Source: Alteromonadaceae bacterium Bs31 (GTDB taxonomy: Bacteria > Pseudomonadota > Gammaproteobacteria > Pseudomonadales > Cellvibrionaceae). From it: 64,000 nucleotides of DNA. The notes beneath the pieces were generated by a model. That model ran no database searches, was not told the DNA's origin, and was given only the letters and a program-made list of their open reading frames with translations. Positions within the stretch are counted from its first letter, which is position 1, and every line of letters begins with the position of its first letter. Shown here in pieces: positions 5,751 to 47,499 of the stretch. The stretch lies in contig FXAI01000006.1 in the NCBI GenBank assembly GCA_900177435.1, positions 62,001 to 126,000 of the forward strand. The letters run 5' to 3'. A program made the translations under genes and the position numbers.

Positions 5751-7481
5751 GTGAGCCTTTCAACGGATGCTGTAAATTTTCAATCACTGAACATGGTTCG
5801 TGACGAACTGGTCGCAACCATTGACGCCTCAGCGCAAAATTTAGAGACATTCGTCAGCAATGAACAAGACAGCGATGTTCTTCAAAGCTGCATTAACGGA
5901 ATTCGCCAGATAGTTGGCATCCTGCGTCTGATTCAGTTTCGCGGTGCATGCTTGCTGGCAGAAGAGCTGTTAGTGACAGCAAATGATATTTCTCCTGGTA
6001 GTGAGGGACCTGCATTTAACAGGCGCATGGAAGTAATCTCTAATACTTTCTTTGTGCTTACCCGGTACCTGGAATACATACAGCAGGTGGAGAGAAAAGT
6101 ACCCGTGCTGCTTATTCCTCAGATTAACGAGTTAAGAAAACTGCGTGCTGAGCCCGCCATTACAGAGTGTCATTTTTTTCATGTTGATCTTGGCAATACC
6201 CCGCCATTACCGAGAGTGGAATCCCTCGACCTGCAATCGCAAAGTTTCACCAGTACGGTAAGACGCCTGCGCCAGATGTACCAGATAGGCTTACTTGGCT
6301 TGCTTCGTGAAAAACAGATCAAGAATTCCCTGGCGCTTATGCGCAGAGCCCTTATTCGCTTGCAGCGACTCAGTGGTAATGACAAGCCCTTAATGCTGCT
6401 ATGGTGGTTGGGTAACTTGGCGCTGGATGTTATTCAGTCTGAGAACATGTCTTTGTTGGAGACAAGAAAGATTTTATTTGGGCGCATAGACCGAGTGATC
6501 CGACAAGTACAGGAAAAAGGCGAAAGCGCGCTGTCTGCAGCACCTCCTCGCTCTATTTTAAAAGAGCTGGTTTATCTGTTGGCGCTTTCCGGTAAGGAAA
6601 ACGAAGAGCTAGCAGCTATAAAGAAAGCCTACGGCGTAGAGAGTTTCTCCTACAGCGATAAAGACCTGGCAAATGAACGAGACGCCCTTAACGGCCCCAG
6701 TGCGCATACCGTTATGTCTCTCGCAAAGGTTTTACAGGCAGAACTGGCTAGCTCCAAAAAAGTGCTGGAAAGCGCAGCTCAAAGCAGCTCTCAGAAAATT
6801 GACGATATTGATGAGTTTGTGGGCAACCTACAAAAAATTGCTGAAATCCTTTCGGTGGTTGGTCTGGTATCGCCAAGTAATATTCTTAAGGAGGAAATCA
6901 AACGAATTCGCCTCTGGAAATTACAGGAAGACGGGCCAGACCCAGATGAGCTGGCCGATGTCGCCAATACCATGCTTTACCTTGATAGTGCAGTTTCTGC
7001 CTTGGAGCATGCAAAGCTATCTGACGAAAAATTAACCGAAGCCAGCAAAATAGCACAGGAAGAAATCATTGCCTCCAGCGAGCTGTCTGAGGCAGGAAGA
7101 ATTGTTATCGAAGAGTGCGAAGCCGGGCTTTCGCTTACCAAGAGAGCGCTTAGTGCGTTTGCCGATTCAAATTATGACACTGGCCATATACGCAACATTG
7201 CTAAAACCCTGAATACTGTGCGCGGGGGTTTGATCATGTTGAAAAAAGAGCACGCCGCCAATTTGCTTTCACGCTGTGTCGATTTTGTGGATGGGGTGTT
7301 AATGGATCAAGATCACCCCGCAGCGCTTAAGGAGCTGCTCGAAACGTTTGCGGATGCTATCGTCTCCATCGAATATTACCTGGATTCAGCCAGTTCAAGC
7401 CTAAAAATGGACGAATCCGTATTGAAGGTAGCGGAAGAGAGCCTGGAAGCCTTGGGGCACGCAGCCTATGGAGACGACTAG
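5751..7481 (+). CDS. fimL: FimL-like protein (twitching motility / ChpA N-terminal homologue)
   Basis: This is probably the homologue of P. aeruginosa FimL, which links the Chp chemosensory system, cyclic AMP and type IV pilus function. The assignment rests on three things: length (576 residues, FimL being slightly shorter), an all-helical soluble make-up with Hpt-like repeats resembling the ChpA N-terminus, and its position immediately before nudC, as in Pseudomonas. Helical segments around ICNGIRQIVGILRLIQFRGACLLAEELL and HIRNIAKTLNTVRGGLIMLKKEHAANLL resemble Hpt folds, but neither shows the phospho-acceptor motif HxxKG, as expected for FimL. The start is GTG at 5751 with AGGA upstream. Its 3' end overlaps nudC by 14 bases. 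Confidence 0.8.
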   Translation: MSLSTDAVNFQSLNMVRDELVATIDASAQNLETFVSNEQDSDVLQSCINGIRQIVGILRLIQFRGACLLAEELLVTANDISPGSEGPAFNRRMEVISNTFFVLTRYLEYIQQVERKVPVLLIPQINELRKLRAEPAITECHFFHVDLGNTPPLPRVESLDLQSQSFTSTVRRLRQMYQIGLLGLLREKQIKNSLALMRRALIRLQRLSGNDKPLMLLWWLGNLALDVIQSENMSLLETRKILFGRIDRVIRQVQEKGESALSAAPPRSILKELVYLLALSGKENEELAAIKKAYGVESFSYSDKDLANERDALNGPSAHTVMSLAKVLQAELASSKKVLESAAQSSSQKIDDIDEFVGNLQKIAEILSVVGLVSPSNILKEEIKRIRLWKLQEDGPDPDELADVANTMLYLDSAVSALEHAKLSDEKLTEASKIAQEEIIASSELSEAGRIVIEECEAGLSLTKRALSAFADSNYDTGHIRNIAKTLNTVRGGLIMLKKEHAANLLSRCVDFVDGVLMDQDHPAALKELLETFADAIVSIEYYLDSASSSLKMDESVLKVAEESLEALGHAAYGDD

Positions 7482-8960: not shown

Positions 8961-10127
8961 TTGGAATTTTTATTCGACTACGGCTTGTTCCTCGCGAAAG
9001 CCGTAACACTAGTAATCGCAATAATTGCCGTAATTGCTGTCATCGCAGCTTCAAGTATGAGGGCGCAAGGTCAGGAAAAAGGCCACATTGAAGTCTGTAA
9101 ACTCAATGACAAATATGAAGACGTTGTAGAAAGTATTAAATCTGTTGTTTTGGATCAGGAACTACTGAAACTAGAACATAAAGATCACAAGAAAAAAGAG
9201 AAAGAAAATAAAAAGCGAGCAAAAGCGCTAGCAAAGCAAGCGAAGAAGAATAAAGACCTTTCTACTGATGGAGAAACAACAGATAAGCCGGAGGAGGGCG
9301 CTTCACCTACTGCAGCCGACGACAGTGCCGATCACGCAGGTGATAAAGAGACGGTTAAACAAGTGGCAGCCAAAAAAAGGGTGTTTGTCACAGACTTTGA
9401 TGGTGATATAAAAGCCAGCGATACTGAAAACCTGCGCAAGGTTGTAACCGCCATTATTTCTCTGGCAAGTAAAAATGACGAGGTTGTGATCCGTCTGGAG
9501 AGCCAGGGTGGCATGGTGCATAGCTATGGTCTCGCCGCCAGCCAGCTTGCACGTATTACAGCAAAGGGAATCCCGCTTACGGCCTGCGTGGACAAAGTGG
9601 CTGCCAGTGGCGGTTACATGATGGCCTGTGTTGCCAACAAAATTGTAAGTGCACCATTTGCAATTATTGGATCGATAGGTGTTGTTGCACAGCTGCCTAA
9701 CTTCCACAAACTCTTAAAGAAAAATGACGTGGACTATGAAATGTTCACTGCTGGCGAGTACAAGCGCACTATTACCATGTTTGGAGAGAACACCGAAAAG
9801 GGTAAGAAGAAATTTGTAGAGGATCTCGAGGATACCCATGTCTTATTCAAAGATTTTATTCGAGAAAATCGCGAGGTGGTAGATATTGATGATGTGGCAA
9901 CTGGCGAGATCTGGTTTGGTACGCGTGCCCTCGACAAAAAGCTGATAGATGAGCTGGCCACCTCTGATCAATATTTAATGGAGGCCTGCGAAAATGCGGA
10001 TGTTTTTGAGATTAAGTACCTGGAAAAGAAGACTTTACCAGAAAAGTTGGGCTTGAGTGTGGAGTCGGCAATGGACAATGCCTTCACCAAGATAATGCAA
10101 AAGCTAAACAATAAAATATTTAGCTAG
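8961..10127 (+). CDS. sohB: Inner-membrane serine peptidase SohB (S49 family)
   Basis: This is a signal-peptide-peptidase-like protease of the S49 family. The 388 residues start with a membrane segment (about 12-31). A charged Lys/Glu-rich linker follows (70-140, longer than in E. coli), then the peptidase domain with nucleophile Ser216 (AASGGYMMA) and general base Lys268 (AGEYKRT). These equal E. coli Ser178/Lys230 plus a constant offset of 38. The start is TTG at 8961, preceded by GGAG at 8948-8951. It is last in the run that begins with fimL and is convergent with the antiporter gene. Confidence 0.92.
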   Translation: MEFLFDYGLFLAKAVTLVIAIIAVIAVIAASSMRAQGQEKGHIEVCKLNDKYEDVVESIKSVVLDQELLKLEHKDHKKKEKENKKRAKALAKQAKKNKDLSTDGETTDKPEEGASPTAADDSADHAGDKETVKQVAAKKRVFVTDFDGDIKASDTENLRKVVTAIISLASKNDEVVIRLESQGGMVHSYGLAASQLARITAKGIPLTACVDKVAASGGYMMACVANKIVSAPFAIIGSIGVVAQLPNFHKLLKKNDVDYEMFTAGEYKRTITMFGENTEKGKKKFVEDLEDTHVLFKDFIRENREVVDIDDVATGEIWFGTRALDKKLIDELATSDQYLMEACENADVFEIKYLEKKTLPEKLGLSVESAMDNAFTKIMQKLNNKIFS

Positions 10128-36303: not shown

Positions 36304-38424
36304 TTAAAAATTAGCGACCTGCTGAGTGCGGCTATTAGAGGACAAACGAATCAGGTCGATCAGTATATTGCCGGTTTCGATGAGCAGGGTATCTCCATCT
36401 ACATCGATATCGTTGTGACTATTACTGGCCCTTTTTTCCTCAAGCTCTTCATCAGTCTCTTCTTCGGACTTGCGGAACTCTTCCAGGTTTTTATAGGGTG
36501 TCATTTTCTTCGCAAGGCGCCTTTTGTTTTCAACATCCATAGCCTGTTTTTCTAAACGCTCTTTTTCTGCAATACGTTCTTTCTCGTTCAAAGAGATAAC
36601 TTTTTTACTCTTGTTGTTCTCCATGATTTTAATTTGATCAAGAATAAAATTGAAATCTGGGTCGCCCGCAACTCTCTTTTGGTGCTGAGTGACAAGGCGC
36701 GGCACGAGGCTTGTAAAATCGAAATACGAGGCATGAGGCACTGCGTGTATTTTGTCCCAGGGCAGGGCGTTGTCGTAAGCGGATTCACCAACTTCATCGC
36801 TGTCGATGAGCAAAGGTAATTCTATATCCGGAATAACTCCTCGGTGCTGGGTGCTGTCCCCCGACACGCGATAAAATTTAGATTCCGTTATTTTCAGCTT
36901 GCCTTCAAGTAGCGGGGTAACAGATTGCACTGTACCTTTGCCAAAGCTCTGTGAGCCGACAATCAGGCCTCTGTTGTAGTCTTGAATGGCGCCAGCAAAA
37001 ATTTCTGACGCCGAGGCACTCAAACGATTTACCATTACGATGAGAGGCCCTCGATAGCGGGCTTTGGAGTGCGAACGATTATGTCTGTTTATACGCCCAT
37101 CCGGGGAACGGATTTGAACAACGGGGCCTTGGTCGATAAACAAATCGGTGAGCATCGTTGCTTCGTGCAGAGAACCGCCGCCATTATTGCGCAAATCTAA
37201 AATAACGCCGTCTACGTTTTCCTTGCGAAGCTCATCCAGCAAGCGGGCAACGTCGCGAGTACTGCTCTTGAAGTTGGGGTCGCGATTGTTGTAAGCCTCA
37301 AAATCGATATAAAAAGCAGGCAGGTGAATTACGCCTATTTTGAAAAGGTTATCGCCATCACCAAGCTCTAACACGGCTTTTTGGGCTGCCTGGTCTTCAA
37401 GCTTTACTTTGCCGCGGTTAATACGAATGACTTTTGAATCGCCGTTAGTGGCAGCATCTGACGACACAGCCTCGAGCTTAACAACCGTATTCTTAGGCCC
37501 GCGGATTAAATTAACCACCTCGTCCAGGCGCCAGCCAACGACGTCTACCAGCTCTCCATCAGCGCCTTGACCAACGGCGATAATCTTGTCGGCTGGTTTA
37601 AGTTGGCCTTGTTTGTCTGCTGGCCCACCGGCAACCAAGCGTACCACTTTGGTGAACTCATCTTCCGATTGAAGTACTGCACCAATACCTTCTAAGGAGA
37701 GCGACATACTAATATCGAAATTCTCAGAGGTTCTTTCACTCCAGTAATTGGTATGGGGGTCGTACAGCATAGTTAGCGCGTTAACCATGGTTTCAAACAC
37801 ATCCACGCTGTCTTGTTGTTTTATGCGGTTTAACTGATTTTTATAACGGCGGTGTACTGTTTTGCGAGCTTCCTCAACCGTTTTGCCTGCAAGCTTAAGG
37901 TTTAACAAGCTAAGTTTTATGCGTTTGTACCATAGCTCATCCGCCTCAGCACGGGTGGATGGCCACTCGGCCTCTTCGCGATCCAAAGAAAGAACATCTT
38001 TGGCTGTGAAGTCGAAGGTAACGGTGTCGTCTTCAACGATATCCAGCACCGCTTCAAGGCGCGATACCAAGCGCTGCCTGAAGGTGTGATAGATCTCAAA
38101 GCCGGGCTCAAGATTGCCGCGTTTGAAAAAGTCATCAAAGTTATTGGCATTTTTTCGAAAGCCGCTAATGTCTTTCTTATAAAAGAACATTCTGGAGGGA
38201 TCGAGCGTGTCTAAATACTGATCGAGAAAGCGCTGAGACAGGTCATCGTTAACGGGCTGATCTCGATAGTGGCGCGAATGTAGTTTTGTGATGACATCCT
38301 TAACGGTCTCAGATTGTTTTTCAGTGTGTTCCAATGGTGCAACTATTGAAGACACTGCCAGAGGGGCGGCTAAAGTCAGAACTGCTAAAGCAAGGACTAG
38401 CCTAAAATTCTTGAGAAATCTCAT
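36304..38424 (-). CDS. prc: Tail-specific periplasmic protease Prc (C-terminal processing protease)
   Basis: This S41A protease degrades or trims periplasmic proteins by their C-termini. From ATG 38424 the product is about 706 residues with a signal peptide (MRFLKNFRLVLALAVLTLAAPLAV). A GTG-started frame to 38493 would add 23 residues before it and is less likely. Domains are a helical N-terminal region, PDZ (about 215-320: LEGIGAVLQSEDEFTKVVRLVAGGPADKQG), the S41 catalytic core with Ser in SASASEIFAGAIQD and Lys in SFGKGTVQ, and the DUF3340 C-terminal part (KKVISLNEKERIAEKERLE). It is followed by xthA. Confidence 0.94.
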   Translation of the reverse strand: MRFLKNFRLVLALAVLTLAAPLAVSSIVAPLEHTEKQSETVKDVITKLHSRHYRDQPVNDDLSQRFLDQYLDTLDPSRMFFYKKDISGFRKNANNFDDFFKRGNLEPGFEIYHTFRQRLVSRLEAVLDIVEDDTVTFDFTAKDVLSLDREEAEWPSTRAEADELWYKRIKLSLLNLKLAGKTVEEARKTVHRRYKNQLNRIKQQDSVDVFETMVNALTMLYDPHTNYWSERTSENFDISMSLSLEGIGAVLQSEDEFTKVVRLVAGGPADKQGQLKPADKIIAVGQGADGELVDVVGWRLDEVVNLIRGPKNTVVKLEAVSSDAATNGDSKVIRINRGKVKLEDQAAQKAVLELGDGDNLFKIGVIHLPAFYIDFEAYNNRDPNFKSSTRDVARLLDELRKENVDGVILDLRNNGGGSLHEATMLTDLFIDQGPVVQIRSPDGRINRHNRSHSKARYRGPLIVMVNRLSASASEIFAGAIQDYNRGLIVGSQSFGKGTVQSVTPLLEGKLKITESKFYRVSGDSTQHRGVIPDIELPLLIDSDEVGESAYDNALPWDKIHAVPHASYFDFTSLVPRLVTQHQKRVAGDPDFNFILDQIKIMENNKSKKVISLNEKERIAEKERLEKQAMDVENKRRLAKKMTPYKNLEEFRKSEEETDEELEEKRASNSHNDIDVDGDTLLIETGNILIDLIRLSSNSRTQQVANF

Positions 38425-39265
38425 ATGGGAATAAAGCCGAAACCGTTTTTTGAGTGGATTATTTGAAGGTGAAACCTTCGCTAAATATAGCACAGCGTAT
38501 TTCTTTTAATGAGTACCCGACTGTAAATAAGTTCCATTTTAGGCACTATGTCTCGCAAGCAGCGCGCTAGCCGGGGCGCTGAGTGATATTTTCGCACATA
38601 TTGCTCCCCTTGTATTATGAATACATTGCGTGAAACATTTTTCTTGTTTTCAAGGCTTGTGCTGAGCTTATGTTGTACGAAGGTGCTTGTCTTGAGGGGG
38701 CGCTCAAAGAAAGGCGCGTAAGTTATTGAAATGTATGAAATAATTGCTCATTTGGTGGCGATAAATACACTTTGTAGGCACCGCCCACGCTTGCAATGGG
38801 GCAAGTAAAAGACGATTTTATGTGCCTAAGCGATTAGCTGGCCTCAAAGTAGCAACTAAGCTCAAATGAGCTCGGTTGGTATATTGCCTTGCGCACGTTT
38901 AGTGTGCTTGTTTGATGAGAAACTAAACCCTGTTAACTAGAAGGAAGAGTTTCTCTACAAGGTGTATGAAAACCCAGGTCTTTGAGCGGTTTAAGCGAGG
39001 AATAGCTATTAGGGGCACTAAGGGCTGGATGTGCTTGTGGATGTGAGCGGGAAAGGGAAGGCCAGTTATCGGTGTTTGCCGAATGTAAGGCCTCCCCCCA
39101 GTTCTTCACTCTAAAGGTATGGTTTACAAACTGCCTGGAGCTAGGAGAGGAGACAAGGCCATATTATTTGGCGGTGATTCTCTCCCTTCGCTTGGTGTAG
39201 AGCTTTTTAGCTCCTCAGTAACACTAAGCTGACGAGGTTGGGCCAGCCGTAAAAATCTTCTTCAG
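38425..39265. other. Long gene-free stretch upstream of prc
   Basis: These 841 bases must include the prc promoter. I find no open frame with a good start, no RNA-gene signature and no strong inverted repeat. The composition is similar to the neighbouring genes, so a decayed gene is possible, but no recognisable protein fragment remains. Confidence 0.45.
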
Positions 39266-39676
39266 CTATTGTGCTTTACCTTGGCACATAAACTTAGCCT
39301 CCGCGCAGGCGAATGGGATGCCGTCGATACTAAGATCGGCCTGAGCTATGTACAAGGGAGCTTTGCTTTTAATCAAGCGCGCTTGTAATAGGACTTCTAC
39401 GAAACAAGGTACAGGATGAAAAAATCTAATCTTTAGTTCAGCTGTTACTGCCTCGATATTTAGAGCAAATAAACAATGGGTCATTGCTGAGTCCAGCAGT
39501 AAAGATATTACTCCGCCGTGTAAGATTCCAGTATAGCCTTGGAGGTGTTGATTGGGCTGAAACCTCGCTTCTACCCGGTTCTTTGGTTTGGTAATGAAAT
39601 GCAGGTTCAATGAGAGAGGGTTCTCCACTCCGCAGGCAATGCAGTTTTTATGGCTCGTTGGTATTTTTAACATCAA
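39266..39676 (-). CDS. PaaI-type hotdog thioesterase
   Basis: This 136-residue hotdog-fold protein has the family signature NQHLQGYTGILHGGVISLLLDSAMTHCLF (HGG with the helix that follows). A cysteine pair near the N-terminus (KNCIACGVENPLSLNL) resembles the PaaI subgroup with a CxxCG start. It probably hydrolyses an acyl-CoA in the cytoplasm; substrate unknown. It stands alone. Confidence 0.85.
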   Translation of the reverse strand: MMLKIPTSHKNCIACGVENPLSLNLHFITKPKNRVEARFQPNQHLQGYTGILHGGVISLLLDSAMTHCLFALNIEAVTAELKIRFFHPVPCFVEVLLQARLIKSKAPLYIAQADLSIDGIPFACAEAKFMCQGKAQ

Positions 39677-40009
39677 GTAAAAAATATTTTAGTAAACATG
39701 TAGTAAACACCAATAAAAATATAAATTAAACCTTGCAAAGAAATCTGCCGGGAATGGGGTTTTGGTTTGGCGGAGTGGAATAACAAAATAACACTTCCCT
39801 TGCTGGTTATCGAAAGCAGTTTGTTTGTAAGACAAATTGCTTAGCTTGAATTTTCCGGTAGCGGTGTTCCCCTATGTTTTTTTTTGGGTAGGTGTGTACC
39901 TTTCAGTTAATCAGTTGGAAAAAATGTAAGTCAATGTGCTTGTCTACGGCTGGCGCCCCTTTTAAGGAAGTATACCCTTAAGGGGCAGCAGTGACTTTTT
40001 GCGAAGCTA
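39677..40009. other. Intergenic region with a hairpin downstream of the peroxiredoxin gene
   Basis: A 333-base gap. GCCCCTTTTAAGG (39955-39967) and CCCTTAAGGGGC (39975-39986) form a long stem with a small bulge, 24 bases beyond the peroxiredoxin stop on the minus strand. It is probably its terminator, although a T-tract is lacking. The rest is AT-rich and shows nothing further. Confidence 0.5.
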
Positions 40010-40654
40010 TTAAAGTGATTTTGTTGAGTAGTACCAGTCTACGGTCTCATAACCTTCTGAGGCACGTTTTTCCGCGGCTTCAGCCGTTTTTGGTGGAGGA
40101 ACAATTACCTTGCAGCCTGCTGTCCAGTTTTCCGGTGTCGCAACACCATTGGCGTCAGATGTTTGCATGGCTTCCAATAAGCGCAGGAACTCATTAATGC
40201 TTCTGCCGTTGCTCATGGGGTAGTATACCATTGCCCGCAACACACCATCGGGATCAATAAAAAATGTGGCGCGTACCGCCTGGGTATCATTGGCGCCAGG
40301 GTGAATCATTCCGTAGGCCATGGCCACTTCCATTTTTATGTCTTCGATAATGGGAAACGGAACATCCACATCAAACTTTTCTTTTATATTGCGAACCCAG
40401 GCGAGGTGGGAAAAAAGGCTGTCGATGGACAGACCCAGTAATTCACAATTCATTTTTTCAAAGGTGTTAGCCGCTTGGGAGAAAGCGATGAATTCAGTGG
40501 TGCACACCGGCGTAAAATCCGCAGGGTGGGAAAAAAGAATTAACCATTTACCACGGTAGTCTTCTAGTTTACGTATCCCGTGCGTTGTCTGCGTATTAAA
40601 AGCAGGGGCAGGTTCGTTAATTCTGGGGAGGCCAGCGTTGATTAAGTCTTCCAT
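40010..40654 (-). CDS. Peroxiredoxin of the Prx6 (1-Cys-like) subfamily
   Basis: This thiol peroxidase has 214 residues. The peroxidatic Cys51 is in the motif HPADFTPVCTTEF; the Prx6 C-terminal extension carries NWTAGCKVIVPPPKT with a further cysteine that could act as resolving residue. Also visible are RATFFIDPDGVLRAMVYYPMSNGRSINEFLRLLEA. GAGGA lies 7 bases before the ATG. A leader of about 257 bases separates it from a sigma-54 promoter (40922-40937) and an activator site (41024-41056) shared with the operon at 42909. It is thus predicted to be a target of the neighbouring three-cysteine activator. Confidence 0.93.
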   Translation of the reverse strand: MEDLINAGLPRINEPAPAFNTQTTHGIRKLEDYRGKWLILFSHPADFTPVCTTEFIAFSQAANTFEKMNCELLGLSIDSLFSHLAWVRNIKEKFDVDVPFPIIEDIKMEVAMAYGMIHPGANDTQAVRATFFIDPDGVLRAMVYYPMSNGRSINEFLRLLEAMQTSDANGVATPENWTAGCKVIVPPPKTAEAAEKRASEGYETVDWYYSTKSL

Positions 40655-40754
40655 TGTTCAATCCTCATAGGTATTAAGGCCTGTTAACCTTCATTTCATG
40701 TACTATTTAGTCATTAGAATTTTGCCATCAAGCCGATGGCCGCTGTTACGGGAG

Positions 40755-40784
40755 GAGAGTGGTTTAGTCGGCTAAACTACTCTC
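40755..40784 (-). promoter_or_regulatory. Long hairpin in the peroxiredoxin leader
   Basis: GAGAGTGGTTTAG (40755-40767) and CTAAACTACTCTC (40772-40784) pair over 13 positions with a single G-T wobble and a four-base loop. It lies in the predicted 5' untranslated leader between the sigma-54 promoter and the peroxiredoxin start. No T-tract follows on the minus strand, so it is more likely a stability or translation-control element than a terminator. Confidence 0.6.
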
Positions 40785-40921
40785 AAAACGATGTTCAGTT
40801 AATAAACAGCCTCCAGCAGTGCGTATAAATTAGTGTTAACAGGTCTTGGTTAAGCCGGTTATGAGTAACTCCCGTGAAGGAGGCTCAATATTAGGCATTT
40901 CTTATGTTTCACATGCTTTAG

Positions 40922-40937
40922 AGCACCATCTGTGCCA
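40922..40937 (-). promoter_or_regulatory. Sigma-54 promoter for the peroxiredoxin gene
   Basis: The minus strand reads TGGCACAGATGGTGCT, with GG and GC separated by exactly 10 bases as needed for RpoN. Predicted transcription start is about 40911. It differs at only 2 of 16 bases from the promoter at 42882-42897. Confidence 0.8.
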
Positions 40938-41023
40938 GCCGCGAATCCAGCGGCTATATTGCTGATTTGTTTAAGTTATTTACTCATGGTGGCGACAGTT
41001 GCGAGGGCAGATTGCGATTACTT

Positions 41024-41056
41024 GCCATTTATGACTTAAAATTTGTCATAAATGGC
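41024..41056. promoter_or_regulatory. Perfect inverted repeat, activator binding site (UAS 1)
   Basis: GCCATTTATGAC (41024-41035) and GTCATAAATGGC (41045-41056) are perfect complements with a 9-base spacer. The centre is about 129 bases upstream of the predicted peroxiredoxin transcription start. The same 12-mer recurs at 42759. The remainder of the 40655-41399 gap shows no gene. Confidence 0.85.
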
Positions 41057-41399
41057 GCTTTTATTCGCACGCTCAGATTGGCCGAAATTCGCAAGTTTAT
41101 AGGGCCGCCTTGTTAAGGCGCGGTGGGCTAGCGGCGTGCTTGTGCGCAGCGTCGATAGTGATTGTGAATGCAGTCTACGGAGTTACTCGTGTTACTCAAT
41201 ATTCAACTGAAAAGAGCGCGGTTTCCTCGTTTATTTATTTGAAATTAAAGAGCTGGCAATGGATGCCCTGCAGGGCAGGCCCTAGTAAAAAACCTAGTGC
41301 TTCTATTTTTAACGCTGTATAGCGCTTTCAAAGCATCGGAGAAAAATAAATTGCAAGCGTACTTGCTAAGGCGCCAGTAAAAATTTATGCACACATACA

Positions 41400-42749
41400 T
41401 CAGTCACGACTTTCCTTTAATTTTCGATACAAGGATCTGACACTAATGCCGAGTACATCAGCCATGCGGCTAACATTGCCCTGCATTGCGTGGTGCATAT
41501 TTTGAAGATAATTGTTTTCAAGGGTTTTAAGATCCACCCATCCATCCACACCTGAATAATGCGCTTTAGTAACCGGGGCTTCTGCTGGGGGCTGTTCGAT
41601 CTCTAGGCACTCTGCAATTACATTGCGATCGAGTACGTTGGTGTCTGCCAATACTATGGCGCGGTTTAGTATGTTGCGTAACTCACGGATATTGCCCTCT
41701 AGAGATTGCTGCGCTATTTGTTGGATAGCAGAATCTGTTAAAAAATATTCCCGTTCCGTTGACACTTGCTGTAACAGTGCTCTCGCTATTTGCGGCAGGT
41801 CTTCCAGGCGCTCCTGCAGGGATGGCAGGCGAATGGGGAAGACATTAATGCGGTGAAACAGGTCCGCACGGAATTTTTCTTCAGCAATTAGTTGTTTGAT
41901 ATTTTTATGTGTGGCGCAAATCAGGCGAAAATCGCTAGATTGTATTTCGGTACTGCCTATGGGCCTGAACGTGCGGTTCTCCAGCAGGCGCAGCAATTTT
42001 ACCTGCATGCTAAGAGGAACATCGGCGATTTCATCCAGAAATAAGGTGCCGCCGTGGGCCAGCTCCACCAGGCCTTTTTTGGCGCTGCTTGCACCGGTGA
42101 ATGCCCCTTTACTGTGGCCAAATAATTCACTCTCAAACAAGGTGTCGGTTAAACCGGAACATTCCAGTGTAATTAGCGGTTTTTCACTGCGTTGGCTGGA
42201 CTGATGAATGGCTCGTGCCGCAAGCTCTTTGCCGGTTCCCGTCTCCCCCAAGAGTAATACGGAGGCATCTGAACGGCTGACTTTGCTGATGCTGTCGAGC
42301 ATATGCAAAAAAGCAGGGCTGCTGCCCACCATGGTTTGGCTTTGCCGCACACCACTGGCCAGTGGGATGGGTTTCATCAGCTCCACGAATGCCCCACGTC
42401 CGTTTTCTGAGGGTGGCAGGGGAAGCATTTCGATCTCGATATGCTCCGCGCCGTTTTTGGTCTGGTGGATGTGCAGAATACGGGTTCTCTTACCGGATAT
42501 TCGGGCCCGCTGCATGGGGCAGTCTTCGCCGGACTTGTCGCAGGGTTGGCTGTATCCGTGGGAAACTTGGTAGCAGTGCTGTGGAGCCTGTTCAGTGAGG
42601 CGAATTTCACCAAAAGCCTGTTGGTAAAGGGTGTTTACCGCCAGGATTTCATAGTCCTCACTCACCAATATGGCCGGGTGCTCGAAACCGTTGAGTAGTT
42701 GAGCCATCTGAGACAGTTGGGTATTGATGCTGCTCGCTATAAGATTCAT
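41400..42749 (-). CDS. Sigma-54-dependent activator with three N-terminal cysteines (FisR-like)
   Basis: This 449-residue enhancer-binding protein has a PAS-like N-terminal domain (about 15-125) with Cys59, Cys70 and Cys77. The spacing of 11 and 7 equals that of Cys53/64/71 of Cupriavidus FisR, which senses sulfane sulfur. The AAA+ domain has Walker A GETGTGKE (168-175), the sigma-54 contact loop GAFTGA (215-220) and Walker B LFLDE (Asp239, Glu240). A Fis-type helix-turn-helix is at the end (MADVLGISVRSLYRKLKE). No ribosome site is clear; a five-codon frame (MALSE) ends overlapping its ATG. It lies between its two probable targets, and the second binding site abuts its start, so autoregulation is likely. 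Confidence 0.9.
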   Translation of the reverse strand: MNLIASSINTQLSQMAQLLNGFEHPAILVSEDYEILAVNTLYQQAFGEIRLTEQAPQHCYQVSHGYSQPCDKSGEDCPMQRARISGKRTRILHIHQTKNGAEHIEIEMLPLPPSENGRGAFVELMKPIPLASGVRQSQTMVGSSPAFLHMLDSISKVSRSDASVLLLGETGTGKELAARAIHQSSQRSEKPLITLECSGLTDTLFESELFGHSKGAFTGASSAKKGLVELAHGGTLFLDEIADVPLSMQVKLLRLLENRTFRPIGSTEIQSSDFRLICATHKNIKQLIAEEKFRADLFHRINVFPIRLPSLQERLEDLPQIARALLQQVSTEREYFLTDSAIQQIAQQSLEGNIRELRNILNRAIVLADTNVLDRNVIAECLEIEQPPAEAPVTKAHYSGVDGWVDLKTLENNYLQNMHHAMQGNVSRMADVLGISVRSLYRKLKESRD

Positions 42750-42758
42750 TCGCTAAGT

Positions 42759-42788
42759 GCCATTTATGACATTTCAGACAAAAATGGC
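42759..42788. promoter_or_regulatory. Inverted repeat, activator binding site (UAS 2)
   Basis: GCCATTTATGAC (42759-42770) is identical to the half-site at 41024. After a 6-base spacer GACAAAAATGGC (42777-42788) matches the opposite half at 10 of 12 positions. The centre is about 134 bases upstream of the start predicted from the promoter at 42882 and 10 bases from the activator's own start codon. The spacer is 3 bases shorter than in UAS 1. Confidence 0.75.
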
Positions 42789-42881
42789 AGCATTTATTGG
42801 CAGGGTCAAGCCTGAATATTCGGAGGGCTTCAATAAGGCCTAACAATCAAGGGTCAACACAACACGAACTCTGGGTGCTAG

Positions 42882-42897
42882 TGGCACAGCTAGTGCT
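42882..42897 (+). promoter_or_regulatory. Sigma-54 promoter for the pseudo-MBL operon
   Basis: TGGCACAGCTAGTGCT has GG and GC 10 bases apart and matches the peroxiredoxin promoter at 14 of 16 bases. The predicted start (about 42908) falls next to the ATG at 42909, which would make the message almost leaderless. Confidence 0.75.
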
Positions 42898-42908
42898 AAT
42901 GCATTGTT

Positions 42909-43766
42909 ATGATTCTGCAAACCAAACATCAGCAAACACAGCCCTGCCGTGTCGTCGCTTTCTATTCTCGTGACACCCGGCACTTTAGCTACGTGTTGAG
43001 CGATGTGCACAGCGGCACTTGCGCTATTATCGACCCAAGTGCCAACTACACAGCCTGTTCCGGGCTGCTGGTTTTTAGAGATGCGAACACTATTGTGCAG
43101 TACATACACGATCATTCGCTTACTGTTCAGTGGTTACTGGAGACCGATATACACACCAGTCATTTTTCCGCAGCGGCCTACATACGAAAAAAAACAGGCG
43201 GCAAGCTGGCGATTAGCGCGGCAGTTGCAGAAATACCCAAGCGCCTAAAATCATCCCATGGCGAAATCGCTTTAGAGCCGGCAGGGTTTGACTGTATGTT
43301 GCAACAGGGGCAGACAATATCGCTTGGTGAGCTGCAAATTAAACCGATGGCAATTCCGGGTCGCAGCCCGGCGGCCATGGCTTTTTTGGTGAGTGACTGT
43401 TTGTTTTCAGGGAGTTCGTTGCTAATGCCAGACAAAGGGGCTGCCTGTGCGTGTTCCCCACTGGCAGATCGTAACAAGATGCAACAGTCTTTGCTGTACA
43501 TGCTTAAACTGCCCGCTACGCTGCGGGTATTTGTGGGGCGTGACAGTGATAACGCCACAAGGTCGCTAGAGTATGAAACCACCATAGGCCAGCTGCGACA
43601 AACACGACTGAACCAGGCTATTCCTCGCGGTAGCTGTCTTAATCGCAGCCAATATGCATCGGAATTCTGCGCTTTGTTCTGGCCTGCGTTACAGTACAAT
43701 CTGCGAGCGCAATTTACAGGGTCGCGCTACTGCAATTTAACCTTTCCACTGAGTGTTGAAAAATAG
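42909..43766 (+). CDS. Degenerate metallo-beta-lactamase-fold protein (pseudo-enzyme related to persulfide dioxygenase-like hydrolases)
   Basis: These 285 residues follow, block by block, the MBL proteins of the persulfide dioxygenase/Blh-like group: FSYVLSDVHSGTCAIIDP, LTVQWLLETDIHTSHFSAAAYIRKKTGGKLAI, ELQIKPMAIPGRSPA, FSGSSLLMPDKG, YETTIGQLR. The metal ligands are mostly gone. The usual THxHADH reads TDIHTSH (Asp80, His82, Ser84, His85), PGHT reads PGRS (Arg152), GDTLF reads GSSLL (Ser169) and the last His is Arg211. Five of seven ligands are replaced, so catalysis with a binuclear metal is unlikely. The C-terminus adds several cysteines. It is the first gene of a three-gene operon. Confidence 0.85.
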   Translation: MILQTKHQQTQPCRVVAFYSRDTRHFSYVLSDVHSGTCAIIDPSANYTACSGLLVFRDANTIVQYIHDHSLTVQWLLETDIHTSHFSAAAYIRKKTGGKLAISAAVAEIPKRLKSSHGEIALEPAGFDCMLQQGQTISLGELQIKPMAIPGRSPAAMAFLVSDCLFSGSSLLMPDKGAACACSPLADRNKMQQSLLYMLKLPATLRVFVGRDSDNATRSLEYETTIGQLRQTRLNQAIPRGSCLNRSQYASEFCALFWPALQYNLRAQFTGSRYCNLTFPLSVEK

Positions 43767-43798
43767 CAAACAGTTGGATATCCCTAACAGGAGTATGT

Positions 43799-44407
43799 GT
43801 GTTCTCAATAACCGAATCCATAGAAACCCCGCACATTTATCAACTGCTGACAAACGGCGTTGTACCCAGGCCTATTGCCTGGGTAAGCACAATCAGCAAA
43901 ACAGGTATTGCGAACCTCGCGCCTTACTCTTTCTTTAGTGTCGCCAGTGTTAACCCACCTGTGTTGACGGTAACCACCGTTCCCGCCAGAAACAAACTGG
44001 CGAAAGATACCTTGCAAAATATTTTGGATACCCAGGAAGCGGTTGTTCATATTGTTACCAGCGAACTTGCAGAAAGCATGAATGCCAGTAGTGGGAATTT
44101 TTCTTCCGATACCAGTGAAATTGACGCGCTCATGCTTAAAACTGTCGCGAGCGAACTGGTTACTCCGCCGAGCATCGCTGCAACAAAAATTCGATACGAA
44201 TGTACCTTGCGTGAGCTTATTGAAGTTGAACCAGACCCTGGTGGCGGGATGTTAATCATGCTGAATGTACTTGGCGTTTACGTCGATGATTCGATACTGG
44301 ACGGCAATAAGATTGACCCTGCAAAAACCACAATACTCGGTAAACTAGGTGGAAATGATTACAGTGATACCGCTGTAAAAACCGTTTTACTTCGCCCCGA
44401 TGGGTGA
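43799..44407 (+). CDS. Flavin reductase-like FMN-binding split-barrel protein
   Basis: This 202-residue protein of the flavin reductase-like superfamily has VPRPIAWVSTISKTGIANLAPYSFFSVASVNPPVLTV as the FMN-binding start and KDTLQNILDTQEAVVHIVTSELAESMNASSGNF after it. A start at 43799 (GTG) follows an AGGAG site. It probably binds FMN and reduces it or a bound substrate with NAD(P)H in the cytoplasm. It begins 32 bases after the pseudo-MBL gene, so it belongs to the same sigma-54-driven operon. Confidence 0.87.
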   Translation: MFSITESIETPHIYQLLTNGVVPRPIAWVSTISKTGIANLAPYSFFSVASVNPPVLTVTTVPARNKLAKDTLQNILDTQEAVVHIVTSELAESMNASSGNFSSDTSEIDALMLKTVASELVTPPSIAATKIRYECTLRELIEVEPDPGGGMLIMLNVLGVYVDDSILDGNKIDPAKTTILGKLGGNDYSDTAVKTVLLRPDG

Positions 44408-44439
44408 TAAAACCGCTGTATGTAAAAATAGAGTTTCAA

Positions 44440-44676
44440 ATGAAAATCCAAAAAGCTATTGAGCTGTTTAAACGAGGAGAATTGGACGAGGTGGAGGTGG
44501 AGCTGCGGCGCAGCCCCAACAATCTCTCACAATGGTTCATTCTGCTCCGGCACCCAGATGGCAAATCATTAATGCTGGCAGATGAAGATGATCGCTGTGT
44601 GGTGGATGCCGACATCCAAAATCTGCTCGATTTATTGAAGACCATAGGCTTTCACCAAGTTATGGTTATATTCTGA
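44440..44676 (+). CDS. Small conserved protein of unknown function
   Basis: A 78-residue product is read from ATG 44440 (MKIQKAIELFKRGELDEVEVELRRSPNNLSQWFILLRHPDGKSLMLADEDD...IGFHQVMVIF). A GTG at 44404 overlapping the previous stop would add 12 residues. The pattern AIELFKRGEL ... W.L.L....GK.. L.D ... LLKTIGF is one I associate with small proteobacterial proteins without known function. It is last in the pseudo-MBL/flavin reductase operon. Confidence 0.7.
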   Translation: MKIQKAIELFKRGELDEVEVELRRSPNNLSQWFILLRHPDGKSLMLADEDDRCVVDADIQNLLDLLKTIGFHQVMVIF

Positions 44677-44740
44677 ATATTAAATTTACCTTAAGGGAAG
44701 AGGGCACTCTAGACTGGCTGCTGCTGGGAAAAGTTAATAA

Positions 44741-44849
44741 ACCAAGTGTATTTGGGCTAGGATGGATTTATTGGGCATGCCAGATAAGGCATGAGCAATC
44801 GTTGCGTGTTATTCCCGAGCCGCAAAACGAGCCGCAAAAAAAGGAATAG
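44741..44849 (+). pseudogene. Remnant of RAYT-like (REP-associated) transposase, copy 1
   Basis: One frame reads HEQSLRVIPEPQNEPQKKE and then stops. It resembles DEQSLDDILKPQKPASVKPL in the second remnant at 52.6 kb and the region before the helix-turn-helix of REP-associated tyrosine transposases. Both copies also share the DNA ATTGGGCAYGCC and GAGCAATCGTT. Only about 30 codons remain. Confidence 0.5.
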
Positions 44850-44889
44850 GGCGAAGATCTGACACCTCTCCGCTAAAACTAACAGGCCT

Positions 44890-45732
44890 TCAAAGCGCCT
44901 TGGGCTGGCGAATTAAGGATGAAAAATCGCTGCTATCCACAGCACCTTTACTGCCGTCAATGCTATATCGAGCCTGGGCGGCGGATAGTGAATCGGCCTG
45001 CTTTATTAAGCCGCGTTCAAAACTGAGGCGGTCAGAATAACCCGGCAACATAATGCGGTAGTCCAGCCACTGCCACCAGTGATTAAAACTGCGTGTAACC
45101 TTTAATAGGCCGGTCATACAATTATCTGTAAAGGTGTTATAAAACGCTGGCTGTTGTTGCAGCCCTTGCGCCACCAGCAGGTAGCCTTTAAGCAGCTCTT
45201 GTTGCGCATCACTATCAAGTGCTAATGGATATAAATACACTTTCTCTTGGCGTATATGGCTGCGTAAGCCAATCACGTCTTGCTCGGTGGCTAACACTAT
45301 GGTTTTTTGGTATTGCCTAAACAGGCCCCGTATGGGGTGGTAGCCATCATCGCTGTTTTGCAGCCGGGCCTCTATAGAAACTACCAAATATTGTCCTCCT
45401 TCAAATTCAAAGCTCACAAACACATGCGCCATCCCCATCGCGCCGAAGTGAGAAATGCCGTACCACAATTGCTTTAACTGAGAAAACTGGTATTCACCGG
45501 TGAGGTATTGTCGCTGGGCAATTTGGTCGCTAGCATTTTTGCCTGCAGCCTGGTAACGAAAGTCCCGTAAGTTTCCAATAACAATCTTGTCGCCATTGAT
45601 GGTAACTTCTGGCAGCACCTTAAACTGGGCCTGCCAATCCAGGTCATTATTGGGCGCTTTTAAGCCTAAATATACGGCGGCTACTGTGCCGAGCGCTGCC
45701 AGGGCTGCTGCTGCTTTTTTGGGTATCGACAT
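44890..45732 (-). CDS. DUF4105-related periplasmic or membrane protein, short form
   Basis: This 280-residue protein has an N-terminal hydrophobic anchor or signal (about 5-25). A DUF4105/Lnb N-terminal-type domain follows: AHVFVSFEFEGGQYLVVSIEARLQNSDDGYHPIRGLFRQYQKTIVLATEQDVIGLRSHIRQEKVYLYPLALD, then YNTFTDNCMTGLLKVTR, where the Asn-Cys pair resembles the family's conserved cysteine. No barrel part is present, unlike the long protein at 53064. Function unknown. Confidence 0.75.
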   Translation of the reverse strand: MSIPKKAAAALAALGTVAAVYLGLKAPNNDLDWQAQFKVLPEVTINGDKIVIGNLRDFRYQAAGKNASDQIAQRQYLTGEYQFSQLKQLWYGISHFGAMGMAHVFVSFEFEGGQYLVVSIEARLQNSDDGYHPIRGLFRQYQKTIVLATEQDVIGLRSHIRQEKVYLYPLALDSDAQQELLKGYLLVAQGLQQQPAFYNTFTDNCMTGLLKVTRSFNHWWQWLDYRIMLPGYSDRLSFERGLIKQADSLSAAQARYSIDGSKGAVDSSDFSSLIRQPKAL

Positions 45733-45904
45733 ATAAAACCAGATGAGTAAAAAACCCTAAGGTAGCATGAATGCGACATACGACTAAATACAGTAAAGGG
45801 AGGGTTTTGTGTGCAATTCACACATTGGCGATTGCTTGCTTAAACACTACCGTGGTATGCCCGGGCTCATGTATAGAGCCAGAGCCCTCGGGCAGCAGGT
45901 AAAA

Positions 45905-45963
45905 TATGGCAATATTTTGCCATACTATGGTTTTTACGGTACATATGGCATAATGCTGCCACT
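45905..45963 (+). promoter_or_regulatory. hipBA operator pair
   Basis: ATGGCAA (45906-45912) and TTGCCAT (45917-45923) form a perfect palindrome with spacer TATT. A second, imperfect site with the same half TATGGCA (45944-45950) and TGCCA (45957-45961) follows directly before the hipB start. Paired operators with this spacing are expected for autorepression by a HipB dimer. CATAAT (45949-45954) could be the -10 element. Confidence 0.7.
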
Positions 45964-46308
45964 ATGATGCTAAATACACCGCCAAATGTACCCGCCACAC
46001 TCTCCCGTTTAAGTACTGCATTGCGACAGGCCCGCAAAGCACTGGGGCGGGACAACTCAGATCAATTTGGCAAAGAGATTGGGGTTTCCGGTCGTACTTT
46101 ACGCGTGCTGGAAGCATCGGGTAAGGGCAGTGTCGAGAACCTGATACGTGTTCTTATGGCAATTTGCCCTAACGCGCTTGATGATCTCATTGAGTACATT
46201 GAATCAGTAGAGCCTCCCTATGCTTCGGTTGACGAGGCGCTCGAGCAGAAGCCAGCTCGCCGGGCTAATCAAAAACCAAGTTCTTTGGGAAGCAAGGCGC
46301 GGGAGTAG
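45964..46308 (+). CDS. hipB: HipB-like XRE-family antitoxin/repressor
   Basis: This 114-residue protein has an XRE helix-turn-helix (about 14-70: LSTALRQARKALGRDNSDQFGKEIGVSGRTLRVLEASGKGSVENLIRVLMAI) and a disordered basic tail. It directly precedes hipA, with only 3 bases between. It should bind the palindromes just upstream and hold HipA inactive. The domain length is longer than E. coli HipB. Confidence 0.85.
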   Translation: MMLNTPPNVPATLSRLSTALRQARKALGRDNSDQFGKEIGVSGRTLRVLEASGKGSVENLIRVLMAICPNALDDLIEYIESVEPPYASVDEALEQKPARRANQKPSSLGSKARE

Positions 46309-46311
46309 GGC

Positions 46312-47499
46312 ATGCCGGTTGATCGCTTAAAAGTTGTTGCGCGTTTTGATGATGAGCCACTTCATATCGCAGACCTTGGTATTCGTAACGGCCAGGTTTT
46401 CTTTCAATACACTGCCGACGCTCTTGCCTGTGAGCGCTCTTTTTCCCCGGTACATCTTCAGCCAAATACCCAGGTTCAGTCCTTTAAACCCGGTGCGTTA
46501 CCGCCATCCTTTATGGGCTTGCCAGGCCTTTTAGCCGACGCTCTGCCGGATAGCTGGGGTAGAGCGCTGTTTAGGCGCGAACTGGCTAGAAACAATACCT
46601 CCACACGGGGTATGACCGCGCTGGATATACTCTCTTTTATTGGGGAATCCGGGCTTGGGGCCTTGTCTTTCTACCCCTTAGCATTAAGGGAAGGCTCCCA
46701 AAATGCACCTATCACTATGGATGCGATCCTAACTGAGGTGAACCACGCGCAAACCACCACCAGCACTCTTGGCTCAGAGTTTTTAGCGGCCGCGCTACCT
46801 TCTGGCGGTGCGCGGCCAAAGGTGCTTCTGCAAAAAAGCGGCGATAAACTGTATTTTAGCCGTGGGGCGCTGGGTGAGCCGGGTGAGTCCTGGCTGCTAA
46901 AATTTCCTGATAAGAATGATCACCCGGAAGCGGGCCTACAGGAATATCATTACCATCAACTGGCGAAAAAAGCCGGTATAAGGGTGCCAGAGGCAGCGGT
47001 ATGGGGCGAGCGTTATTTCGCAGTGAAACGTTTTGACCGTTGTGGCGATACTCGGCAGCATGTGCACAGTTTATCGGGAATTTTACACCGCGAATTTACT
47101 GACTTTTCCTTAAGCTATGATGATTTTTTTACGCTTACGCGGCAGCTCACTCAATCTGTAGATGAAACTCTCGAAGCCTTTCGCCGAGCAATATTTAATC
47201 GCGTTTTTGAGAACATGGATGACCATGCCAAAAACCACGCATTTACCATGGATCACACTGGCAAGTGGCGACTAAGCCCAGCCTATGACTTAACGCACTC
47301 AACAATACTGGGCATTCATCCTATGGCATGGCTGGGCACGTCAATTGGCTTACCCGCAACGCCAGCCATCGTGGAACAAGCAAGCGCTTTAGGTATCCGT
47401 AAAAAAGCGATTAACGAATGCTTAGAGCATGTGCAGGATTTGCGAGCGGACACTGGCTTATTAAGCCAAAAAGAATGGCTCGATAAGCTAGTGCCATAG
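46312..47499 (+). CDS. hipA: HipA-family serine/threonine kinase toxin
   Basis: This 395-residue kinase of the HipA family in E. coli phosphorylates glutamyl-tRNA synthetase and induces persistence. The HipA N domain is at about 1-110 (FMGLPGLLADALPDSWGRALFRREL). The HipA C kinase domain follows: the glycine-rich/ATP-lysine region SGGARPKVLL ... SWLLKFPDKND, catalytic loop FNRVFENMDDHAKNHAF (Asp and Asn) and metal-binding SPAYDLTHS. All catalytic residues appear intact. The pair is in the accessory region near transposase remnants, consistent with acquisition by transfer. Confidence 0.93.
   Translation: MPVDRLKVVARFDDEPLHIADLGIRNGQVFFQYTADALACERSFSPVHLQPNTQVQSFKPGALPPSFMGLPGLLADALPDSWGRALFRRELARNNTSTRGMTALDILSFIGESGLGALSFYPLALREGSQNAPITMDAILTEVNHAQTTTSTLGSEFLAAALPSGGARPKVLLQKSGDKLYFSRGALGEPGESWLLKFPDKNDHPEAGLQEYHYHQLAKKAGIRVPEAAVWGERYFAVKRFDRCGDTRQHVHSLSGILHREFTDFSLSYDDFFTLTRQLTQSVDETLEAFRRAIFNRVFENMDDHAKNHAFTMDHTGKWRLSPAYDLTHSTILGIHPMAWLGTSIGLPATPAIVEQASALGIRKKAINECLEHVQDLRADTGLLSQKEWLDKLVP

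Follow-up and report, generated by a model that had tools for sequence, protein, structure and literature searches.

What would a FisR-type activator control in a genome that appears to lack the sulfide oxidation genes pdo and sqr? The question is raised by a locus of Alteromonadaceae bacterium Bs31 (GenBank assembly GCA_900177435.1, contig FXAI01000006.1), which occupies positions 40010 to 44676 of a 64,000-nucleotide stretch of that contig (positions 62,001 to 126,000; this whole stretch is called the window, and coordinates refer to it unless a locus is named). The gene of a three-cysteine sigma-54 activator stands here between a gene for a Prx6-type peroxiredoxin (prx6) and an operon for a metallo-β-lactamase (MBL)-fold protein, a flavin reductase domain protein, and a small protein, a gene set that had been described in the same way by a first-pass annotation made from the sequence alone. 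The locus is a variant of the known FisR regulon and calls for no new category. We consider it likely that it forms a FisR-type, sulfane-sulfur-responsive sigma-54 regulon with a changed output, that is, tolerating sulfide instead of oxidizing it. In most of the relatives that we read, fisR lies opposite a persulfide dioxygenase (PDO) gene, with SQR-like and SulP genes often downstream of the latter, and in some of them paired activator sites are also found ahead of genes for sulfur transporters, cytochrome bd, or Prx6.

A FisR-type activator with three sensor cysteines

The activator gene (41400..42749, minus strand) encodes 449 residues with a sigma-54 AAA+ domain (PF00158, 6.4e-66) and a Fis-type helix-turn-helix (PF02954, 1.3e-7). 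FisR proteins sense reactive sulfur via three conserved cysteines (PMC9774590; see also PMC12170894 for sulfur sensing by FisR), and deletion of fisR in Acinetobacter baumannii abolishes the sulfide induction of the pdo-sqr operon (PMC7315123). Eighteen of the 19 fisR homologues were read, a contig fragment in G055 being left out, and the sensor residues C59, C70, and C77 are invariant in all 18 aligned homologues, including those opposite live PDO genes. In the FisR tree the three members of the genus are grouped with support of 100/100 on an ordinary short branch. The gene is also placed as a FisR gene would be, facing away from a pdo-type gene that has a sigma-54 promoter, although this pdo is degenerate (see below). 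The proposal of a FisR-type three-cysteine activator was thus borne out by cysteines, domains, and phylogeny. We infer that the protein binds the sites described below and responds to sulfane sulfur; that the signal would be sulfane sulfur rather than peroxide or NO is judged from homology only.

Paired sites and sigma-54 promoters

Both flanking units are preceded by a −24/−12 promoter. That of prx6, TGGCACAGATGGTGCT, lies at 40937-40922 on the minus strand (predicted +1 at about 40911, leader of about 257 nucleotides), and that of the MBL-protein operon, TGGCACAGCTAGTGCT, at 42882-42897 on the plus strand (predicted +1 at about 42908). The two elements, reported as nearly identical in the first pass, indeed share 14 of 16 bases and differ in 2, and by a simple score they tie with one further place for the top sigma-54 score in the 64-kb window. 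With rpoN found in the genome and −24/−12 promoters at activator-site distance, the locus has the makings of a sigma-54 regulon.

Upstream of each promoter is a predicted activator site. The prx6 site (41023..41057, minus strand) consists of units 41024-41035 and 41045-41056, and 41024-41056 is a perfect 12+12 inverted repeat. In the site of the MBL-protein operon (42758..42789, plus strand; units 42759-42770 and 42777-42788) one arm is identical to the same 12-mer and the other is changed in 2 of 12 bases; this site lies 8 bp ahead of the fisR start codon and may act on fisR too. From site centre to predicted +1 the distances are 129 and 134 bases, which agrees with the earlier estimate of about 130, while the shared 12-mer, at first called a half-site, turned out to be a whole palindromic unit. 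We rejected the interpretation of the 12-mer as half of one long inverted repeat, as single units are palindromic and occur in pairs that are mostly 18 to 23 bp apart. Shared sites and promoter types suggest that the peroxiredoxin and the dead MBL protein are controlled in the same way, as had been supposed.

The unit, GNCA-N4-TGNC, was recognized by reading fisR-pdo intergenic regions in relatives. Across 382 kb from 24 sources we counted 23 unit pairs with starts 12 to 45 bp apart, against 0.8 in shuffled sequence. Of the 18 fisR loci read, 17 (all but L085) have a pair next to fisR, and the pair of L086 has an unusual spacing of 14. When 19 chosen sites are aligned, 12 columns are invariant. 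Scored with a matrix built from the 17 sites outside the window, the two window sites reach 34.1 and 31.0, compared with 7.1 for the next nonoverlapping place in the window and 19.9 for the best of 50 first-order simulated windows. For promoter distances a set of 19 sites was used, which includes one from a named Pseudohongiella record and leaves out the fisR sites of L084, L085, and L086; here the site centre is 95 to 152 bases from the predicted +1 (111 to 139 in 15 of 19), and the best −24/−12 score is at least 13 in 16 of 19, versus 3.7% of random 220-nucleotide stretches. Sites and promoters are therefore conserved among fisR loci, and lack of such conservation was one of the grounds that the first-pass annotation had named for abandoning its proposal. 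The exact 12-mer occurs four times in the 5.0-Mb genome, three times at the locus and once inside an open reading frame (reversed-pattern control, 2). The single-unit pattern was discarded as a genome-wide marker because it is too common to be of use, with 1,678 forward-strand places versus 1,105 for the reversed control. No Rfam family matched region 38000-46000 at the gathering threshold.

A sequence-only site model was applied to 18 genomes that carry fisR and 18 that lack it (36 in all). In the genome of the window the two locus sites are the sole strong matches (E 3.7e-5 and 1.2e-4; next, 0.65). A match with E < 0.001 was obtained in 16 of the 18 fisR genomes and in none of the 18 fisR-lacking ones; since all 16 contributed a site to the training set, which included a site before cydA of G134 and one before the Prx6 gene of G048, a fair judgement has to rest on the matrix that excludes the window sites and on sites outside training. 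Such untrained sites stand ahead of sulfur transport genes (Sulf_transp, DUF6691) in G045 (E 0.001) and G043 (E 0.06). Another, in G132, separates the cyd region from a Tll0287-like gene (genome-wide E 0.16, pair score 30.8). In this same-genus G132 (locus L035), the Tll0287-like heme-type gene (6197-6730) lies ahead of fisR, with a paired site at 6011-6048, and a bacterial globin gene (9387-9827) follows the MBL-protein gene.

cydAB is probably a third unit

A further site (L222:1279-1314) was found in the same genome on contig C41, where cydA is followed downstream by cydB, both identified by family matches. The region upstream of cydA has a pair score of 25.2 with a spacing of 22, while 204 window stretches of 600 nucleotides reach at most 7.1. 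Its promoter, TGGCTTGGTAGTTGCT, has a sigma-54 score of 13.5, and the site centre is 137 bases from the predicted +1. In loci L085 to L087, cydAB, not pdo, adjoins fisR. In A. baumannii, sulfide induces cydAB, and FisR controls pdo-sqr (PMC7315123). Given the similar site, promoter, and spacing, cydAB is probably a third unit, and the two-unit regulon proposed initially would be one of three units on two contigs.

The persulfide dioxygenase at the locus is degenerate

By its sequence, the MBL protein (42909..43766, plus strand; 285 residues) is a degenerate PDO, a pdo descendant in the ancestral position, and not the unrelated stand-in for pdo that it had been taken for; we call it pseudo-PDO. 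Its best curated family is NF040641 (Blh, sulfur transferase/dioxygenase; 1.5e-48, 165.7 bits, with a cut-off of 625, below which the live PDO of a relative likewise falls with 388 bits). The nearest solved structures are PDOs, so that sequence family and fold both point to this class. An AlphaFold model (pTM 0.82, mean pLDDT 75, weak past about residue 230) is nearest to SdoA, a Burkholderia MBL protein, and the PA2915 PDO in a fold search.

Seven conserved metal-ligand positions make up sites I and II of these enzymes (PMC5584763). We compared them under labels of our own, leaving out the glyoxalase-like cluster member L087. The window protein does not have the seven ligands of a PDO, having lost five of them (H1→D, D3→S, H113→R, D154→S, and H195→R) and kept H2 and H4. 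The other PDOs tabulated have all ligands (16 of 16), and both same-genus copies found are degenerate: L035 lacks H1, D3, and D154 (three of seven), and L036 lacks H1, D3, H4, D154, and H195 (five of seven). H1, D3, and D154 are thus gone in all three, and H2 is the sole ligand kept in all three. The trio forms one clade (100/100), to which branch attraction may contribute, as two of its branches are very long. Mutual identity within the trio is 32 to 35%, versus 67 to 70% among their FisRs. All three are full-length frames behind a paired site and a sigma-54 promoter. Of 58 positions identical in the trio, 44 carry the majority residue of live PDOs, and the nine residues specific to the trio include no Cys, His, Asp, or Glu.

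The claimed absence of sqr and pdo held within the searches made: the genome contains no second PDO homologue at E 0.001 and no SQR-like gene matching the single query type. This query was a Pyr_redox_2 protein of one SQR type only, with type III SQR as its best NCBIfam match, below cut-off; over eight genomes of the genus it gave weak matches only (23 to 29% identity) in three. At the thresholds used, searches of seven other members of the genus left five without any match to the FisR sensor or to PDO. A comparable case is A5904_1112 of Acidithiobacillus caldus, which has lost most ligands and has no SDO activity (PMC5584763).

Prx6 recurs beside PDO or FisR genes

The peroxiredoxin (prx6, 40010..40654, minus strand; 214 residues) has the Pfam domains AhpC-TSA and 1-cysPrx_C and matches NCBIfam NF009668 with 9.9e-87 and 289.8 bits (cut-off, 211); human peroxiredoxin-6 is among its solved relatives. 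C51 lies in the motif PVCTTE and His43 eight residues earlier, and both are invariant in the two sets aligned (five and three sequences). It therefore has the peroxidatic Cys, the Prx6 histidine, and the C-terminal domain of a Prx6-type enzyme. Oxidized human and Plasmodium Prx6 are reduced by HS− at >1e8 M−1 s−1, a reaction that needs the Prx6 histidine (PMC12697902). Judged by alignment position, His43 would in our reading be the counterpart of that histidine in HS− chemistry, and by analogy the bacterial Prx6 may use HS− as reductant.

Close Prx6 homologues (E ≤ 1e-70) are present in 3 of 144 genomes of the family, namely this one, G048, and G058. In G048 the Prx6 gene is divergent from a live PDO gene and has its own paired site and promoter (score 12). 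In the G058 genome it lies in a run with cydAB and genes for a heme-type protein, PDO, an SQR-like protein, and SulP. In G012 and G013 a more distant peroxiredoxin (43% identical) is encoded just ahead of a second PDO. As side observations, the prx6-PDO intergenic region of G048 contains a second paired site on the live-PDO side (L037 8823-8858, score 23.0), and L092 (5737-7743) and L093 (5953-7963) each hold a more distant peroxiredoxin gene directly ahead of a second PDO gene and a gene for a 110-residue protein that resembles the N-terminal part of an SQR-like fusion.

A scan of contigs gave at least 544 Prx6 relatives, of which 80 named loci were kept. Among the matches listed, the closest 30 loci (66 to 81% identity) all belong to Pseudomonadota, and 17 of them have a PDO gene in flanks of up to 10 kb, 13 of these no farther than 1 kb away; we estimate that two single genes would lie within 10 kb of each other by chance in about 1% of cases or less. 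The remaining 50 listed have no PDO gene and show 51 to 63% identity, save L167 (73%, on a 3.6-kb contig), but they come mostly from other phyla and some are on short contigs, so that the contrast in PDO linkage is confounded by taxonomy. Two of the closest 30 listed have fisR near Prx6, Acidovorax L134 and Pseudohongiella L151. In the latter, fisR and prx6-cydA point away from each other, and the locus has a paired site scoring 24.2, a −24/−12 promoter, a +1 150 bases from the site centre, and no PDO gene within its 10.6-kb contig. Strong −24/−12 promoters (15 of 15.5) precede two of three Thauera prx6 genes, where the paired sites are weaker (18.6 and 20.2). In a quick tree of the 80 listed loci minus the partial L167, the linked Prx6s fall inside one set of 33 (SH-aLRT 99), 21 of which are linked. 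Chance neighbourhood of the peroxiredoxin was dismissed given the Prx6-PDO linkage in other genomes. Nor is the enzyme a peculiarity of this locus, as was first thought; in Pseudomonadota it turns up repeatedly next to PDO or FisR.

Flavin reductase, small protein, and neighbouring genes

The second gene of the operon (43799..44407, plus strand) encodes a flavin reductase domain protein of 202 residues (PF01613), homologues of which are present in 31 of the 144 family genomes (E 1e-12); it has no match in a set of 18 loci (E 1e-4) or in the 80 Prx6 loci (E 1e-8). The third frame (44404..44676, plus strand) probably starts at ATG 44440, giving 78 residues, and not at GTG 44404, because the homologue alignment begins there. 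A gene for a SulP-family permease stands immediately upstream of the small-protein gene in seven of the eight homologous loci read (one permease was scanned and is of the DauA type; the others were named by eye). Any role of either protein is speculative. Farther downstream, 44890-45732 encodes a protein with a periplasmic Lnb_N domain (Pfam), and 45964-47499 contains a gene for a 114-residue protein, which looks like a helix-turn-helix protein by eye and has no Pfam match, followed by a HipA-type gene (HipA_C, 5.8e-43; Couple_hipA); the two are possibly a toxin-antitoxin pair.

Proposed model and alternatives

In the regulon that we propose, excess sulfide or polysulfide would, as homology suggests, persulfidate the three FisR cysteines, and FisR would then fire sigma-54 RNA polymerase at prx6, the pseudo-PDO operon, and cydAB, as their conserved sites indicate. 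Cytochrome bd might sustain respiration under sulfide, Prx6 could clear peroxide with HS− as electron donor if it follows the published Prx6 chemistry, and pseudo-PDO may, speculatively, be a binding or partner protein without dioxygenation. A bolder version seems rather doubtful to us: in the absence of SQR and PDO, Prx6 itself would be the sulfide-consuming output of FisR, coupling H2O2 removal to HS− oxidation to persulfide, with the pseudo-PDOs kept for this purpose as a lineage of noncatalytic, persulfide-binding regulatory pseudoenzymes and a Pseudomonadota Prx6 clade devoted to sulfane-sulfur detoxification.

Several observations weigh against a FisR regulon turned to sulfide tolerance. 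Control by shared FisR sites and sigma-54 promoters is predicted from sequence throughout. The fisR genomes G040 and G126 have no model match better than E 0.3, and the fisR-lacking sister genomes G135 and G136 have a best match of E 0.006, which lies between two genes without obvious link and was treated as chance. Some of the 23 pairs are far from fisR with no clear target (L038 11925, L082 13805, L087 4986). The cydAB site of this genome has one mismatch in one unit and is absent from the genome-wide model list, in which 150 of 2,384 first-look candidates were scored, and the pertinent section of the A. baumannii study does not show dependence of cydAB on FisR (PMC7315123). For the pseudo-PDO operon, transcription is predicted to begin just one base ahead of the ATG, which means either an almost leaderless message or a misplaced start. 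Among the closest 30 Prx6 loci listed, 13 have no PDO gene (one has fisR, and several are cut by contig ends), and in the part of the loci read neither the flavin reductase nor the small protein was found linked to FisR or PDO elsewhere.

The locus could also be a decaying remnant, with the PDO operon being lost, FisR and its sites kept for cydAB and Prx6 only, and the operon products idle. The pseudo-PDOs are far more diverged than their FisRs, and the five genus members without FisR-sensor and PDO matches fit such a course; we nonetheless hold it unlikely, as three frames at 32 to 35% identity are still intact and full length, each with paired site and sigma-54 promoter, the modelled protein still has the PDO fold, and live-PDO majority residues occupy 44 of the 58 trio-identical positions. 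That FisR changed its ligand along with its targets, with peroxide, NO, or general thiol stress as the new signal of the regulon, would suit a peroxiredoxin among the targets and the globin gene beside the G132 locus. Cytochrome bd withstands NO too, which counts in the same direction. We regard such a switch as improbable, however, because the three-cysteine motif is like that of homologues facing live PDO genes and the genus is an ordinary short branch in the FisR tree. Upkeep of pseudo-PDO at full length under a conserved promoter, with H2 and H4 kept in the window copy, might instead point to an enzyme that has gained a new metal site or activity on its old fold. The pattern of losses makes this very improbable: H1, D3, and D154 are gone in all three, the other losses differ and leave H2 alone in common, and the trio-specific residues include no Cys, His, Asp, or Glu.

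Comparison with known systems

A Prx6 in a FisR regulon, or a motif for the FisR activator, was not found in titles and abstracts of the open-licence papers that our searches listed. The comparison of relatives has yielded a sequence definition of the FisR-type activator site, and promoters, neighbourhoods, and phylogeny together make an independent genomic tie of a bacterial Prx6 clade to sulfide and persulfide handling. The search for the reductant of Prx6 is said to have gone on since 1998, and in vitro kinetics led in 2025 to the proposal that HS− is a potentially universal one (PMC12697902). The present locus is a simple genetic system for testing what reduces Prx6 in living cells, and should the bolder version of the model hold, genetics would have answered what the physiological reductant is.

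The human and Plasmodium Prx6 enzymes are likewise 1-Cys peroxiredoxins with the Prx6 histidine, for which HS− is a very fast reductant (PMC12697902). They are eukaryotic and were studied in vitro, whereas the Prx6 described here is bacterial and tied to sulfur sensing by promoter and neighbourhood. PrxI of Synechococcus PCC7002 is also a peroxiredoxin induced by and acting on sulfane sulfur, but it reduces S8 via a Cys53-Cys153 disulfide, and FisR is not mentioned in the portion of that report consulted (PMC9426444). A5904_1112 of A. caldus resembles pseudo-PDO as an SDO/PDO homologue with most metal ligands lost and SDO activity absent; in the pertinent part of the source it is not described as FisR controlled or as a conserved lineage, unlike pseudo-PDO (PMC5584763).

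The closest counterpart is the FisR-PDO-SQR regulon of Cupriavidus pinatubonensis and A. baumannii, in which a three-cysteine sigma-54 activator and a pdo-type gene, the latter with a predicted sigma-54 promoter, are likewise divergently oriented (PMC7315123). Here, in contrast, the PDO is degenerate, the SQR-like query found no counterpart in the genome, and Prx6 and probably cydAB bear the sites, with the paired GNCA-N4-TGNC site defined by comparison. The locus would thus represent a FisR regulon shifting from oxidation towards tolerance, with a dead enzyme kept under a conserved promoter.

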